From an uncultured Methylococcaceae bacterium (GTDB taxonomy: Bacteria > Pseudomonadota > Gammaproteobacteria > Methylococcales > Methylomonadaceae), in the NCBI GenBank assembly GCA_903927955.1, contig CAIYOW010000070.1:1-54427 (forward strand): a DNA stretch of 54,427 bases. The letters run 5' to 3'. The position numbers were made by a program, and so were the translations under genes. The notes beneath the pieces were generated by a model that was not told where the DNA came from, ran no database searches, and worked only from the letters and a program-made list of their open reading frames with translations. Within the stretch, counting starts at the first letter, position 1; the number at the start of each line of letters is the position of its first letter. Positions 3,159 through 9,828 of this stretch are shown here, in pieces.

Positions 3159-3695
3159 ATGAAAGCCTGTGAAACCTGTTCCAACCGCGTAGATATTGGC
3201 AAAAATTATAAACAAATTTCCTTTACCATCCGCACAGCGGCTATGGCTTTGGTTTATTTGCCTATCCTGACGCTGCCTTTTGTGTTTATCAGCGCCTATT
3301 TGACGTATTACCACTTGCGCATGACAGGTGCCACCAACCTGAAAAAATATAAAGACTTCCTGCCCGACCGCGCCAGCCACCGTTACACGTTGAAAAGCCA
3401 AATCACCATGCACCCCACTTTTAAACCCAGCGTGTCACAGTCCAAATTATTTTGGATATTAAACTGCACATGGTATTGCCCGTACAGCGTGGCCCTATTT
3501 GAATGGCACACTTATTTGGTCAAAGTCGTTGAAAACTGGTGGTGCCCGTTCGGCCATGACAAAAAAGAGGGCTATAGCAACGCACCCATTGACAAGTCAT
3601 TTTGGCATATCTATCCACATGATGCCGCCAAACTGCACGAAGAAGATTTTAACAATCCTATCTGGAATGAAAATACTGACATCAAACCCGACTAA
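3159..3695 (+). CDS. Conserved hypothetical membrane protein with Cys motifs
   Basis: I do not recognise a characterised family. The 178-residue protein begins with MKACETC (C4, C7). It has one or two hydrophobic segments at about 25-52 (AMALVYLPILTLPFVFISAYL), then a polar, aromatic-rich domain with NCTWYCPYS (C103, C107) and NWWCPFGH (C129, H133). Cys and His pairs on both sides of a membrane segment suggest metal or redox chemistry. A strong Shine-Dalgarno AAGGAG lies just ahead, overlapping the end of the metal-binding gene. A strong intrinsic terminator follows the gene. No signal peptide was seen. The protein appears intact, with codon use like that of its neighbours. Confidence 0.8.
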   Translation: MKACETCSNRVDIGKNYKQISFTIRTAAMALVYLPILTLPFVFISAYLTYYHLRMTGATNLKKYKDFLPDRASHRYTLKSQITMHPTFKPSVSQSKLFWILNCTWYCPYSVALFEWHTYLVKVVENWWCPFGHDKKEGYSNAPIDKSFWHIYPHDAAKLHEEDFNNPIWNENTDIKPD

Positions 3696-5150: not shown

Positions 5151-6710
5151 ATGAACAAAAAAATTACCCGCGCCTTGATCAGTGTTTCCGACAAATCCGG
5201 CATTGTCGATTTTTGTCGTGAGCTTAACCTGTTGGGCGTTGCCCTACTATCAACTGGAGGAACTGCCAAATTATTGGCGGACAACGCCATCCCCGTCACC
5301 GAAGTGTCTGACTATACAGGCTTCCCTGAAATGATGGACGGACGGGTAAAAACCTTGCACCCCAAAGTGCACGGCGGCATTTTAGGCCGTCGCGGTATTG
5401 ACGATGCCATCATGGCAGAAAATGACATCTTGCCCATAGATATGGTCGTGGTCAATTTGTATCCCTTTGCCCAAACCGTCGCCCAGCCTGATTGCAGCTT
5501 TGAGACCGCCATAGAAAATATCGACATCGGTGGCCCCACCATGCTCCGTGCCGCCGCCAAAAACCATGCCGATGTAGCCGTAGTGGTCAATCCTGATGAT
5601 TACGGCCTTGTGCTTGCCGAACTGAAAGGCAGCGGACAGCAACTAAGCGGACAAACCCGCTTTGCTTTGGCCGTCAAATGCTTTGCCCATACCGCAAACT
5701 ACGACACCCAAATAACCCGCTATTTAAGCAGCCTGAACGGTGTGCAATTCCCTGAAACGCTAAACTTACAATTTGTCCACCAGCAAGCTTTGCGTTACGG
5801 TGAAAACCCCCACCAAAGCGCCGCATTTTACCGCGATCCGACCGCCGCCTCCGGCAGCTTGGCTACCGCCCAGCAACTGCAAGGCAAGGAACTGTCTTAC
5901 AACAATATTGCCGATGCCGATGCCGCCCTGGAATGTGTCAAAGCATTCCCTGAACTGCCAACCTGCGTTATCGTCAAACACGCCAATCCCTGCGGTGTGG
6001 CGCAGGCACAAGACATTTTGACCGCCTACGACCGGGCTTACCAAACCGACCCCACTTCAGCCTTTGGCGGCATTATCGCCTTCAACCGCGAGCTGGATGC
6101 CGCCACGGCAGCCGCAATCATTGCACGGCAATTTGTAGAAGTCATTATTGCCCCTACCATTAGCGAAGCGGCACAAACACTGCTTGCCGCCAAAGCCAAT
6201 ATCCGCGTGCTAGCCTGTGGCGCGTGGCCCGAACAATACCCACCGGCGTTCGATTACAAACGCGTTGCAGGCGGCTTGCTGGTACAGGACAAAGACCAAG
6301 GGCAGCTCAACCCCGCCGATTTAAAAATAGTCAGCCAACGCGCCCCAACCGAACAGGAAATGGCCGATATGCTGTTTACTTGGAGAGTCGCCAAATTTGT
6401 CAAATCCAACGCCATTGTGTACGGCAAGAATAGCCAAACCATTGGCGTGGGTGCAGGGCAAATGAGCCGTGTCTACTCCGCCAAAATAGCCGGTATCAAA
6501 GCTAACGATGAAGGCCTGCAAGTGTCCGGTTCCGCCTTGGCTTCGGATGCCTTCTTCCCGTTCCGCGATGGTATCGATGCCGCCGCCGAAGCAGGCATCA
6601 CCGCCATTATCCATCCCGGCGGCTCAATGCGCGATGCCGAAGTGATTGCAGCGGCGGATGAACACGGTATTACTATGGTATTTACAGGAATGCGGCATTT
6701 CAGGCATTAA
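5151..6710 (+). CDS. purH: Bifunctional AICAR formyltransferase / IMP cyclohydrolase
   Basis: PurH carries out the last two steps of IMP synthesis: formyl transfer to AICAR, then ring closure. The 519-residue protein has an N-terminal MGS-like cyclohydrolase domain ([39 protein letters not shown]). The formyltransferase domain carries the catalytic KHANPCG motif at about 276-282, plus the [12 protein letters not shown] and [10 protein letters not shown] segments. The pathway partner purD lies downstream, but the two are separated by an ATPase/DUF4276 pair beginning only 21 bases after the purH stop. The enzyme itself appears complete. Confidence 0.97.
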
Positions 6711-6731
6711 AAAATTTAACAGGAATTGTCA

Positions 6732-7913
6732 ATGCTTTTGCACGAAATAACGCTGACTCATTTGCTGTCGTTTGAAAAAACCAAGCTTGAACTCAAACAG
6801 CTAAATATATTAATCGGGCATAACGGTAGTGGAAAATCCAACCTGATTGAAGCAATTGGCCTCCTGCAATCTGCACCTAGCGGGATTGCCGGGTCAATTC
6901 GGGAAAGTGGCGGCATTGCCGATTGGATATGGCAAGGCACGCCACCTTTCCAACCAACTGGCATTGAAACGGTCGTTGAATATCCGGCAACTTCCCCAAC
7001 AAATATCCGTTACGGCATTGAGTTTTCTGGTATCAATCAGCGCTTGGAAATTCGGGATGAATGTATTGGAAATGAAAACTACATCTTTAAAGCTTCTAAC
7101 CCCAACCAATTCTTCTTTTATTATCGCAATGGTATCCCGTATATAAATTTTAAAGACAATTCTTCTGCTAGCGGTAAAGTACGGCAATTGAGGCGCGAAG
7201 ATATCGATATTGAAAAATCCATCCTCGCACAAAGGCGCGACCCCGACCATTACCCAGAGCTAACCTATTTAGCCGATGTTTTCGCCAAGATACGCATTTA
7301 CCGCGACTGGACTTTTGGCCGGCAAACAGCCCCCCGATTGCCGCAAAAAACCGATCTGCCTTCTGATTTTTTACTAGAAAATTGTCAAAATTTGGGCTTG
7401 GTTCTCAATAAACTAGGCAATATCCCCGCCGCCAAATCAGTCATTGTAGAAGCATTAAATGCCCTTTACCCATCAGTCACTGATTTTGGCGTCAATATAG
7501 AAGGAGGCAGCGTACAGGTTTTTTTGCATGAAGGCCGTTTTCCTATACCCGCCACACGGCTTTCAGACGGCACACTACGCTATTTGTGTTTGCTTGCTAT
7601 TCTTTGCCACCCTAATCCACCGCCATTAATTTGCATCGAAGAGCCAGAATTAGGATTACATCCAGACGCACTCAATCAATTGGCAGATTTGATGAAATTA
7701 GCATCGGAACGCACCCAATTGATCGTCACCACCCACTCGGATTTGCTGGTCGATGCTTTCACAAATAGCCCTGATGATGTGGTGATTTTTGAAAAGGATG
7801 GAGAAGCATCCCATGTCAAGCGTTTAGATGCCACTGAGTTGGGCGTATGGCTTAACAAATACACATTAGGACAAATGCGGCAAAGCGGGCACATAGGCGG
7901 CAACCGATGGTAA
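6732..7913 (+). CDS. SMC/OLD-like AAA ATPase (AAA_21 type), putative defence-module subunit
   Basis: This is an ABC-type ATPase of the SMC/OLD/RecF superfamily. It has the Walker A loop GHNGSGKSN at about 29-37, an ABC-like signature LSDGTLRYL at about 278, Walker B LICIEEPELGLHP at about 299, and the switch-region TTHSD at about 333. The long insert between Walker A and the signature lacks an obvious coiled coil. ATG 6732 was chosen over a TTG at 6726 because AGGA at 6721-6724 sits 7 bases before it. The stop overlaps the DUF4276 gene. Such pairs (AAA ATPase plus a TOPRIM-like protein, compare OLD/AbiL/PARIS-type systems) are associated with anti-phage abortive infection; that role is inferred here. 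Confidence 0.85.
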   Translation: MLLHEITLTHLLSFEKTKLELKQLNILIGHNGSGKSNLIEAIGLLQSAPSGIAGSIRESGGIADWIWQGTPPFQPTGIETVVEYPATSPTNIRYGIEFSGINQRLEIRDECIGNENYIFKASNPNQFFFYYRNGIPYINFKDNSSASGKVRQLRREDIDIEKSILAQRRDPDHYPELTYLADVFAKIRIYRDWTFGRQTAPRLPQKTDLPSDFLLENCQNLGLVLNKLGNIPAAKSVIVEALNALYPSVTDFGVNIEGGSVQVFLHEGRFPIPATRLSDGTLRYLCLLAILCHPNPPPLICIEEPELGLHPDALNQLADLMKLASERTQLIVTTHSDLLVDAFTNSPDDVVIFEKDGEASHVKRLDATELGVWLNKYTLGQMRQSGHIGGNRW

Positions 7914-8509
7914 CAATTTATGTCGAAGGTGGCGCGCCCGGTGCTTTAAAAGCAAGTTGCCGGCAAGGATTTAAGAAGTTTTTCGAAAAGTCGGGATTAA
8001 AAGGAAAAATGCCCAGCGTTGTGGCCTGCGGTAGTAGAAACGATGCCTATAATGACTTTTGCACTGCACTTGCCCGAGCAAAAAATACCGATTTTGTGGT
8101 GTTGCTGGTAGACAGCGAAGCACCTGTTACAGTCAATCAAAACCAAGTTTGGCAACATGTTCGGGAAAAAGATAAATGGCAACAACCCGATGCAGCCAAA
8201 CAAGAGCATTTGCACTTCATGGCAGAATGTATGGAGGCTTGGTTTATGGCCGACAAAGATTACCTAAAAGCCTATTTTGGTCAAGGTTTCGACACCAATA
8301 AGCTGCCTGACCAACCGGATATTGAAAAAATTACTAAAACCGATTTGTACAGTGGCTTGAAAAAAGCCACAAAAAACTGCAAAACAAAAGACGGTTACGG
8401 TAAAGGTCAAGATTCTTTTAAAATTCTTGCCAAGATTGATCCACACAAAGTCATTCAATGCTCGCCGTTTGCCGCCCGACTTTTATCCCATTTAAAGACA
8501 TGCCTATAA
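7907..8509 (+). CDS. DUF4276 family protein (TOPRIM-like), partner of the upstream ATPase
   Basis: The 200-residue protein opens with IYVEGGAPG (E at about 6), has LLVDSEAPV at about 67-75, and contains HFMAECMEAWFMAD at about 105-118. This spacing of an N-terminal Glu and a later D-x-E is the pattern seen in DUF4276 proteins, which are thought to be TOPRIM-like and thus possible nucleases. It overlaps the ATPase gene by 7 bases, so the two are very likely translationally coupled and form one module. The catalytic activity is not demonstrable from sequence alone. The partner ATPase and a position between purH and purD support an acquired accessory function. Confidence 0.8.
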   Translation: MVTIYVEGGAPGALKASCRQGFKKFFEKSGLKGKMPSVVACGSRNDAYNDFCTALARAKNTDFVVLLVDSEAPVTVNQNQVWQHVREKDKWQQPDAAKQEHLHFMAECMEAWFMADKDYLKAYFGQGFDTNKLPDQPDIEKITKTDLYSGLKKATKNCKTKDGYGKGQDSFKILAKIDPHKVIQCSPFAARLLSHLKTCL

Positions 8510-8550
8510 GGTGCAATTGTGCCCCCAAACATTAACCCGAGAACAACCTT

Positions 8551-9828
8551 ATGAATATCCTTATCGTCGGCGGCGGTGGACGCGAACACGCACTAGCCTG
8601 GAAAGCCCGCCAATCCCCCTTGGCAGACACCGTCTTTGTCGCACCCGGCAACCCCGGCACCGCCTTGGAAAACGGCATCCAAAACGTAGCCATCGCAGCA
8701 GATGACTTGCTCGGGCTACTTGCCTTCGCCCAGCAAAATGTAGTGGGGCTAACCATCATCGGCCCTGAAGTGCCCCTAGTCTTAGGCATTGTTGACCAAT
8801 TCCAAGCGGCAGGGCTCAACTGTTTTGGCCCCACCGCCCAAGCGGCACAACTCGAAGGTTCAAAAACCTTTTGCAAACAATTCTTAAGCCGCCACCAGAT
8901 ACCCACCGCAGCCTTCCAAAGCTTCACCGACAAAGCACAGGCAATTGCCTATATCCGCCAACAAGGCGTGCCCATAGTAGTCAAAGCCGATGGCTTAGCG
9001 GCAGGCAAAGGGGTCATTGTTGCCCAAACAGAACAACAAGCCATAAACGCAGTAGAAGACATGCTGGCGGGCAACGCCTTTGGTGAAGCCGGACATCGGG
9101 TAGTCATCGAAGAATTTCTGACCGGAGAAGAAGCCAGTTTTATCGTCATGGCTGACGGTCAACACGCCTTGGCTATGGCCACCTCCCAAGACCACAAAGC
9201 TCGCGACAATGGCGACAATGGTCCCAATACCGGCGGCATGGGTGCCTACTCCCCCGCCCCCGTGGTCACCCCCGACATTCATGCACGGGTCATGCGTGAT
9301 GTCATCATGCCGACCCTGCAAGGCATGGCAGCAGACGGCTTGCCTTACAGCGGTTTTTTGTATGCTGGATTGATGATAACCCAAGACGGGGCGGTGAAAG
9401 TGCTGGAATTCAACTGCCGTTTTGGCGACCCCGAAACCCAGCCCATCATGATGCGCCTGAAATCCGATCTGGTGGCCTTATGCTTGGCGGCTTTAGCGGG
9501 CGAACTGGACAAAACCACCAGTAGCTGGGACGAACGCCCCGCACTCGGTGTAGTATTGGCAGCGGCAGGCTACCCCGATGCCTTCCAAAAAGGCGCGGTG
9601 ATTAGCGGCTTGCCCACCCTACAGCGGGATGATTGCAAAGTGTTCCACGCCGGCACCGCCCAAGCGGGCGGTGATATTGTCACAGCCGGCGGGCGGGTAT
9701 TGTGTGCTTGTGCACTAGGGGCGGACATCAAAACTGCGCAACAGCAAGCCTACCAACTGGCAGGGCAAATACACTGGGACGACCTCTATTACCGTACCGA
9801 TATTGGTTTTAAGGCAATCGACGCTTAA
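8551..9828 (+). CDS. purD: Phosphoribosylamine-glycine ligase (GARS)
   Basis: PurD joins glycine to phosphoribosylamine with ATP, step two of purine synthesis. The 425-residue protein has the N-terminal fold NILIVGGGGREHALAWK, the ATP-grasp loop VVKADGLAAGKGV at about 143-155, the SQDHKARDNGDNGPNTGGMGAYSP segment, and the metal-binding stretch VLEFNCRFGDPETQ. The gene ends in a 4-base tail-to-tail overlap with the glycosyltransferase on the other strand. It normally follows purH directly; here an ATPase/DUF4276 pair intervenes. Confidence 0.97.
   Translation: MNILIVGGGGREHALAWKARQSPLADTVFVAPGNPGTALENGIQNVAIAADDLLGLLAFAQQNVVGLTIIGPEVPLVLGIVDQFQAAGLNCFGPTAQAAQLEGSKTFCKQFLSRHQIPTAAFQSFTDKAQAIAYIRQQGVPIVVKADGLAAGKGVIVAQTEQQAINAVEDMLAGNAFGEAGHRVVIEEFLTGEEASFIVMADGQHALAMATSQDHKARDNGDNGPNTGGMGAYSPAPVVTPDIHARVMRDVIMPTLQGMAADGLPYSGFLYAGLMITQDGAVKVLEFNCRFGDPETQPIMMRLKSDLVALCLAALAGELDKTTSSWDERPALGVVLAAAGYPDAFQKGAVISGLPTLQRDDCKVFHAGTAQAGGDIVTAGGRVLCACALGADIKTAQQQAYQLAGQIHWDDLYYRTDIGFKAIDA

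Follow-up and report, generated by a model that had tools for sequence, protein, structure and literature searches.

The window, i.e. the whole stretch of 54,427 nucleotides analysed here, belongs to an uncultured Methylococcaceae bacterium and probably carries, in an exchangeable gap within its purH-purD operon, a settled copy of the anti-phage candidate module HEC-01. The host genome encodes one pmoA-type protein (Pfam AMO, 432 bits) and is thus that of a methanotroph. The evidence comes from the identity of the two genes, from the predicted structure of their products, from the variable content of the same gap in relatives and from the presence of the same system in other housekeeping operons.

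Gene content of the purH-purD interval

The interval between purH and purD consists of a gene for a 393-residue SMC/ABC-type ATPase and a gene for a 200-residue DUF4276 protein, all four genes being on the forward strand. Both flanks are intact: purH (positions 5151–6710) matches Pfam AICARFT_IMPCHas (AICARFT/IMPCHase, E 2e-125) and MGS, and purD (8551–9828) matches GARS_A (E 1.2e-78), GARS_N and GARS_C. A 21-base spacer (6711–6731), in which an AGGAA ribosome-binding-like motif is visible by eye, leads to the ATPase gene HEC-01A (6732–7913; Pfam AAA_21, E 3.9e-38). An in-frame TTG lies at 6726, six bases upstream of the ATG at 6732; the ATG is more likely to be the start, with AGGAA ahead of it. 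The ATPase carries a Walker A motif (GHNGSGKS, residues 29–36, positions 6816–6839), an ABC signature (LSDGT, residues 277–281, 7560–7574), a Walker B motif (ICIEEPE, residues 300–306, 7629–7649) and the motif TTHSD (residues 333–337, 7728–7742). Its gene overlaps the partner gene HEC-01B (7907–8509; DUF4276, E 7e-23 over residues 14–196) by the seven bases ATGGTAA (7907–7913), an arrangement that recurs in 9 of 10 relatives, the overlap being four bases in locus L005. The domain scores of the four genes leave chance no room. A spacer of 41 bases (8510–8550) separates HEC-01B from purD, and its end (CCCGAGAAC) resembles the sequence ahead of purD in six of the seven other cargo-bearing genomes of the genus, G016 being the one that differs. 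The first-pass annotation, made from the letters of the window, had described these coordinates, spacers, overlap, flanks and ATPase motifs, all of which are correct.

The pair is not new and is already catalogued in PADLOC as the candidate system HEC-01. The ATPase matches the HEC-01A model (PDLC04177) over residues 1–393 with an E-value of 2.1e-161, and the partner matches HEC-01B (PDLC04201) over residues 2–198 of 200 (E 6.4e-77), each being by far the best match; the two are adjacent and on the same strand, and both models are covered almost end to end. HEC-01 stands for Hma-embedded candidate 01, and the window copy differs from that setting by lying in a metabolic operon rather than within an immune system. 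Several HECs, of which HEC-06 is the one named, are active against viruses according to the available text of one paper (PMC12988326), and HEC-01 figures among the DefenseFinder predictions in Desulfovibrio piger in the accessible part of another (PMC12724379). A third paper speaks, in the portion available, of systems embedded in systems only (PMC12255303). Narrow literature searches found neither a published phage assay of HEC-01 nor literature on DUF4276. A comparison with NCBIfam produced no match of HEC-01B, and the best 25 of 59 NCBIfam families compared with HEC-01A all scored under their cut-offs. A search of plasmid sequences gave no HEC-01B match, and a search of phage records gave four distant HEC-01A matches (26–33% identity).

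Two further loci of the same genome may be mentioned. In the window, a 178-residue ORF (3159–3695, forward strand) matches no Pfam family at E 0.1 or below. On another contig (C24, locus L002, 886–2681), a further ATPase gene with 27% identity to HEC-01A overlaps a gene for 217 residues in which a Toprim-like 'SVEG' motif was recognised by eye; these are possibly another ATPase-Toprim pair.

Predicted structures and comparison with known systems

The AlphaFold2 model of HEC-01B (pLDDT 93) looks like a Toprim-like protein, in which the set E / DxE / E is invariant. With VIA-align 2, the model aligned with OLD structures (6njv, Z 8.8, 160 residues aligned, rmsd 3.8; 6njx, Z 8.7; 6p74, Z 8.2), with chain 8ux9_A of the PARIS complex (Z 8.0, 166 residues aligned, rmsd 4.2), with an uncharacterised Pyrococcus protein (Z 6.1) and with retron Eco8 (9lpa_B, Z 5.1), every row from rank 7 down having a Z of 4.7 or less. 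Of the top six rows, all but the Pyrococcus protein are Toprim-bearing and come from OLD or OLD-like defence systems. The best Foldseek hit, which was the C-terminal region of OLD, had an E-value of 0.24 and was not significant, so that VIA-align 2, the residues and the families concerned are the basis of the Toprim reading. Searching the sequences of solved structures with HEC-01B yielded nothing at E 1 or below. The residues E7 (7925–7927), D69 (8111–8113), E71 (8117–8119) and E110 (8234–8236), all encoded on the forward strand, are invariant in 18 of 18 HEC-01B homologues and are candidate metal ligands; in the model, E7 directly follows strand 1, D69-x-E71 directly follows strand 3, and E110 is where a helix begins. 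They were matched, by order and secondary structure rather than by superposed coordinates, to E400, D455/D457 and E508, which are given as metal ligands of Bp OLD in the available text of its description (PMC6755086). No counterpart of E404, the metal-B residue of Bp OLD, is evident in the protein of the window (EGGAPG), and several relatives have an aspartate nearby. The fold comparison and the invariant residues bear out the earlier suggestion that the partner is Toprim-like.

The HEC-01A model (pLDDT 78) has the heads of Rad50, SMC and PtuA as nearest solved folds (Z 18–21). Its last 15 residues, ending in GGNRW, were modelled with low confidence, and G380, G386, G389, G390, R392 and W393 of this tail are invariant in 11 of 11 aligned sequences. 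An invariant yet low-confidence tail would be in keeping with a peptide that takes its fold on the partner protein, and part of the conservation may be due to the overlap with the HEC-01B gene. In genome G160 (L013, 2097–3122), the HEC-01A frame seems to be cut at its N-terminus, 341 residues being open with a stop in the longer stretch; HEC-01B is open, and this HEC-01A is possibly a decaying copy.

The first-pass annotation had suggested that the pair may be a less-studied ATPase-TOPRIM member of the abortive-infection systems. The resemblance to OLD- and PARIS-type defence systems is supported; the pair is already catalogued as HEC-01. Among the known systems, class 1 and class 2 OLD nucleases have a Toprim-like fold and an acidic set that the HEC-01B model appears to share, with DxE instead of DxD; OLD proteins unite ATPase and Toprim on one chain, whereas the window encodes them in two ORFs. 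The AriB-type Toprim protein of PARIS is DUF4435. PARIS is closer in layout, since its ATPase AriA and its Toprim protein AriB are encoded by separate genes, as in the window (PMC10568477, in the part available). The AriA model (PDLC02980) also matched the window ATPase (E 3.3e-37), more weakly than five HEC-01A models did, and the partner had no AriB match, its only matches up to E 0.1 being DUF4276 in Pfam and HEC-01B in PADLOC. PADLOC includes an AbiLii model as well, which did not match the partner at E 0.1 or below; the AbiLi model matched the ATPase (E 2e-25), far more weakly than HEC-01A. The profile comparison proposed with the first-pass annotation thus led to the HEC-01 models for both proteins, with AriA and AbiLi as weaker matches of the ATPase. 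The HNH partner or the reverse transcriptase of Septu and retron ATPase effectors is absent, the DUF4276 gene alone sharing the window gap with the ATPase.

In the proposed mechanism, HEC-01A would dimerise on ATP and hold its Toprim partner, perhaps via the conserved C-terminal tail. A signal of infection would release or activate HEC-01B, which would then cleave nucleic acid with Mg2+ and abort the infection, in the manner of OLD- and PARIS-type systems.

Variability of the purH-purD gap

purH and purD were considered linked when found near each other on the same contig and strand, which was the case in 112 genomes of the family among the matches listed. These come from 113 listed pairs on one contig and strand, G195 (928 kb apart) having been left out; in 63 genomes the two genes are apart, on different contigs, or one was not among the matches listed. 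Among the matches listed, gaps of more than 1 kb occur in 6 of 15 genomes of the window's genus and in one of 97 genomes of 19 other genera (G026, 2846 bases), with a Fisher p of 1.4e-5; this value, like the one given below for cysD-cysN, is optimistic because species counts ignore common ancestry. In a quick tree from purH and purD, the six long-gap genomes fall with G006 and G018, which have cargo on split contigs, in a clade of 12 rows (SH-aLRT 98). The other four rows have a gap of 556 bases without any 70-residue ORF (G007), a gap of 186 bases (G014), an unassembled gap (G009) and, in a poorly filled row, a gap of 20 bases (G002).

The comparison of the interval across relatives, which had also been proposed at the outset, showed that the gap is variable in the genus and that the cargo differs between genomes. 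HEC-01 is the cargo of the gap in the window (G000). The gap of G017 encodes an Mrr-type endonuclease, and that of G016 the same by 80% DNA identity; G008 has a weak DUF4365 match under the curated cut-off, G018 has DUF6884 and PDC-M57B, G006 has matches to a C5-methylase and a BsoBI-type endonuclease in two shortened frames, and G011 and G019 encode unnamed proteins. On the purD side, DUF1902, which we take to be HicB-like, is recurrent, in some cases together with PIN and, by eye, an AbrB-like gene. In all eight cargo genomes of the genus, the main cargo ORFs have the orientation of purH and purD. The gap of G026, outside the genus, contains a nucleotidyltransferase/HepT pair and a WYL regulator in the opposite orientation. 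In G001, purH and purD lie on separate contigs (L077 and L078) amid unrelated genes.

The junctions could be located in one pair of genomes. G014 and G016 are 96.4% identical up to one base past the purH stop codon and 96.3% identical from one base before the purD start, and their gaps of 186 and 1069 bases have no mutual match. In the nearest relative, G009 (purH 93% identical), the contig ends eight bases past the last purH codon, stop included, and purD was not found. The gene upstream of purH is fis in G000 (the window's genome), G009, G011, G015 and G018, the rest of those examined having other or no clear ORFs; as this gene is not constant in the genus, it was unusable as a control junction.

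Elements of 75–80 bases that match each other in both orientations occur in the gaps of G008, G011, G017, G018 and G019, near the left end of common right-hand modules (L070, L074, L068, L075, L069). They are possibly MITEs or a recombination site.

A classical mobile-element target, to which cassettes came with an integrase or a transposon that has since been lost, would account for such elements and for the contig breaks at the gap in G018, G006 and G009, as repeats would cause. The window gap contains the ATPase and DUF4276 genes only and no integrase or transposase gene, and a scan of part of the cargo ORFs of relatives named no such family. The junctions of G014 and G016, moreover, coincide with stop and start codons, and exchange retains the site across genera. 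An origin of this kind is rather unlikely, and an exchangeable gap within the operon is preferred.

Core-gene hotspots of defence exist in E. coli. The purH-purD site is a hotspot in the sense that variable, largely defence cargo lies between conserved flanks. The available parts of two papers describe core-gene-flanked or phage-borne hotspots with, likewise, variable defence cargo between conserved neighbours (PMC9122126; PMC12629846). The site differs from them in that its flanks are consecutive, co-directional genes of one metabolic operon, in that no integrase was named and in that the junctions are gene-exact in the one pair compared.

Distribution of HEC-01 and other housekeeping sites

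HEC-01 is patchy. A HEC-01B homologue was found in two of 61 relatives, the window counted, and a profile search retrieved it from 17 of 311 genomes of the order, in 12 of 50 genera. Only the window's own genome, among 20 of the genus, has one, by which a conserved host operon gene was ruled out; conservation of the pair at this position in all relatives, which the first-pass annotation had named as evidence against a defence module, is thus contradicted. The same patchiness bears on a host maintenance role of the OLD-like ATPase in DNA repair or the cell cycle. A maintenance function was reported for the archaeal OLD-like ATPase Cran1 in the accessible part of its description (PMC12796447), and repair proteins are among the Rad50, SMC and PtuA heads that the HEC-01A model resembles. 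An essential maintenance role would not be expected of a gene found in one of the 20 genus genomes and in 17 of the 311 genomes from the order, and this reading is very unlikely.

Most copies found in the order occupy other addresses than purH-purD, for which the window is the sole example (1 of 17). Eight of the 17 genomes carry HEC-01 between cysD and cysN (all of loci L006–L013, the flanks being named by profile in L010 and by eye in the other loci) and two between gatA and gatB (G200 and G122). Three copies lie near cysQ: between lipB and cysQ in G260, beside a gene that is cysQ-like by eye in G258, and at a position deduced from the neighbour in G261. Two lie in BREX-type loci, with a BREX-3 PglZ (G054) and with PglX (G240), and one, in G281, lies upstream of a gene that is ggt-like by eye, its left side being cut by the contig end. 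The two gatA-gatB loci (L152, 1032–3460; L153, 2578–5031) belong to two genera, the gene after HEC-01 being a member of the Uma2 family in L153, by scan, and a similar one in L152, by eye.

The cysD-cysN, gatA-gatB and cysQ positions indicate that the common factor is a housekeeping operon and not purines. The idea that the site would link nucleotide supply to defence, put forward in the first-pass annotation, found no support in this comparison, and a specific purine link was rejected since other operons carry the same system. More broadly, the placement might tie the pair to nucleotide supply by function or by regulation, and the shared direction, the tight spacing and the absence of a forward-strand promoter-like or terminator-like site do make co-expression plausible. 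Relatives nevertheless have the system between genes for sulfate activation (cysD-cysN), between genes for tRNA amidation (gatA-gatB) and at lipB/cysQ, and other types of cargo occupy the same purH-purD gap, so that purine-linked defence is highly improbable.

The cysD-cysN gap was surveyed in 131 genomes of the family with both genes on one contig and strand among the matches listed, 12 having been set aside. Among these matches, the gap is at most 200 bases in 68 genomes, 201–1000 bases in 38 (9 of which were inspected) and more than 1 kb in 25. It is short in 10 of 11 genomes of the window's genus among the matches listed; the purH-purD and cysD-cysN sites thus differ by clade. Outside the family, the gap never exceeds 118 bases in 26 genomes of the class (3 of 29, G435, G455 and G429, having been set aside; Fisher p 0.015 against the family, among the matches listed), these gaps being upper limits because some cysN matches start inside the query.

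Among the matches listed, 17 of the 25 long gaps contain matches to defence models. HEC-01, assigned by BLASTP to the window pair, is present in six; HEC-02, identified by profile scan in G135 and elsewhere by BLASTP (58–66% for the ATPase, 30–41% for the partner), is present in eight others and in one of the six. A GmrSD/HEC-06-like gene, type II restriction-modification genes and a PD-DExK/PtuA-like/PIN set occur in one gap each. As for the rest, two gaps contain an unnamed pair, four contain toxin-antitoxin-type and small genes only (G080 being truncated) and two contain neither (G007, G030). All 25 long gaps have their main cargo ORFs in the direction of cysD and cysN.

The unnamed two-gene module was found in the cysD-cysN gaps of G034, G068 and G131 (L121, 222–1345, reverse strand; L118; L140). 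Its first gene encodes about 190 residues that match Mrr_cat weakly (E 0.0012); its second encodes about 185 residues with Toprim-like motifs recognised by eye (VVEG, FFFD). No PADLOC model matched the G034 copies, and the module is a candidate new defence pair. In the 4520-base gap of G131 (L140), the unnamed pair, HEC-01 and HEC-02 are stacked.

Toxin-antitoxin-type genes recur in the same gaps (DUF1902, PIN, Fic/Doc, HicA/HicB and nucleotidyltransferase/HepT), and the Pfam family of the window ATPase is named AbiEii/type IV TA. HEC-01 might accordingly be a selfish module of toxin-antitoxin type, in which the ATPase restrains a Toprim toxin and addiction, rather than action against phages, maintains the pair. 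The best models of both proteins are, however, candidate defence and not toxin-antitoxin models, and two HEC-01 relatives lie within BREX-type loci; addiction and abortive defence can also coexist. Pure addiction is an unlikely account of the pair, for which anti-phage defence remains the preferred reading.

Proposed exchange and expression of the cassettes

In the HEC-01 tree, each site label with at least two copies occupies one side of a branch, and the seven labels require six changes, the minimum. Within the cysD-cysN copies, clades for g16 (three rows) and g33 (two rows) were rejected with AU p values of 0.021 and 0.0027, which are optimistic because the discordance was tested with the first tree already known. 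The cysN tree keeps g16 and g33 as clades (98/99 and 100/100). At cysD-cysN, HEC-01 thus conflicts with genus while cysN does not, the simplest reading of which would be exchange between genera at the same address. cysD is at least 90% identical in most rows among the matches listed, and on the same simplest reading conserved flanks such as cysD would be the handles for this exchange. The discordance could also come from older copies lost in some lineages. In the mechanism that we propose, cassettes would be exchanged in place by homologous recombination via the conserved flanking genes, without an integrase. The G+C content of HEC-01A (45%) and HEC-01B (42%) is below that of purH (54%) and purD (56%); it lies within the spread of the 30 ORFs of the window (48 ± 5%), so that recent arrival is not proven by composition.

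A consensus scan of the purH-purD gap found no promoter-like or terminator-like site on the forward strand, and it is weak evidence either way since the sites it reported are no more numerous than in shuffled sequences. Together with the spacers of 21 and 41 bases, this suggests that the pair is read from the purine promoter, and its co-expression with the purine genes is possible. The HEC-01 module would then be transcribed, in the proposed mechanism, from a housekeeping promoter.

Implications for defence gene discovery

A more general proposal, to which we would give even chances, is that the purH-purD, cysD-cysN and gatA-gatB gaps of the family are docking sites for compact, apparently promoterless immune modules that are swapped by homologous recombination. 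A narrow literature search found nothing on defence hotspots in housekeeping operons or at cysD-cysN or purH-purD, and the idea may already be in print. If docking is true, the modules acquire a housekeeping promoter and are shielded from loss, because a deletion that extends to the flanks would come at the price of an essential pathway, and the sites form an integrase-independent, operon-internal class of defence hotspot. Most discovery of defence systems searches islands, prophages and the surroundings of integrases. If modules are traded in the gaps of biosynthetic operons, cysD-cysN and purH-purD would be simple search windows for new systems; the scan of core-gene pairs yielded HEC-01, HEC-02, a GmrSD/HEC-06-like gene, restriction-modification genes and the unnamed two-gene module. 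Overall, the analysis suggests that housekeeping operons can serve as swap sites for immune genes in this family, and it makes testable whether ordinary homologous recombination, using the housekeeping flanks as handles, can exchange such genes.
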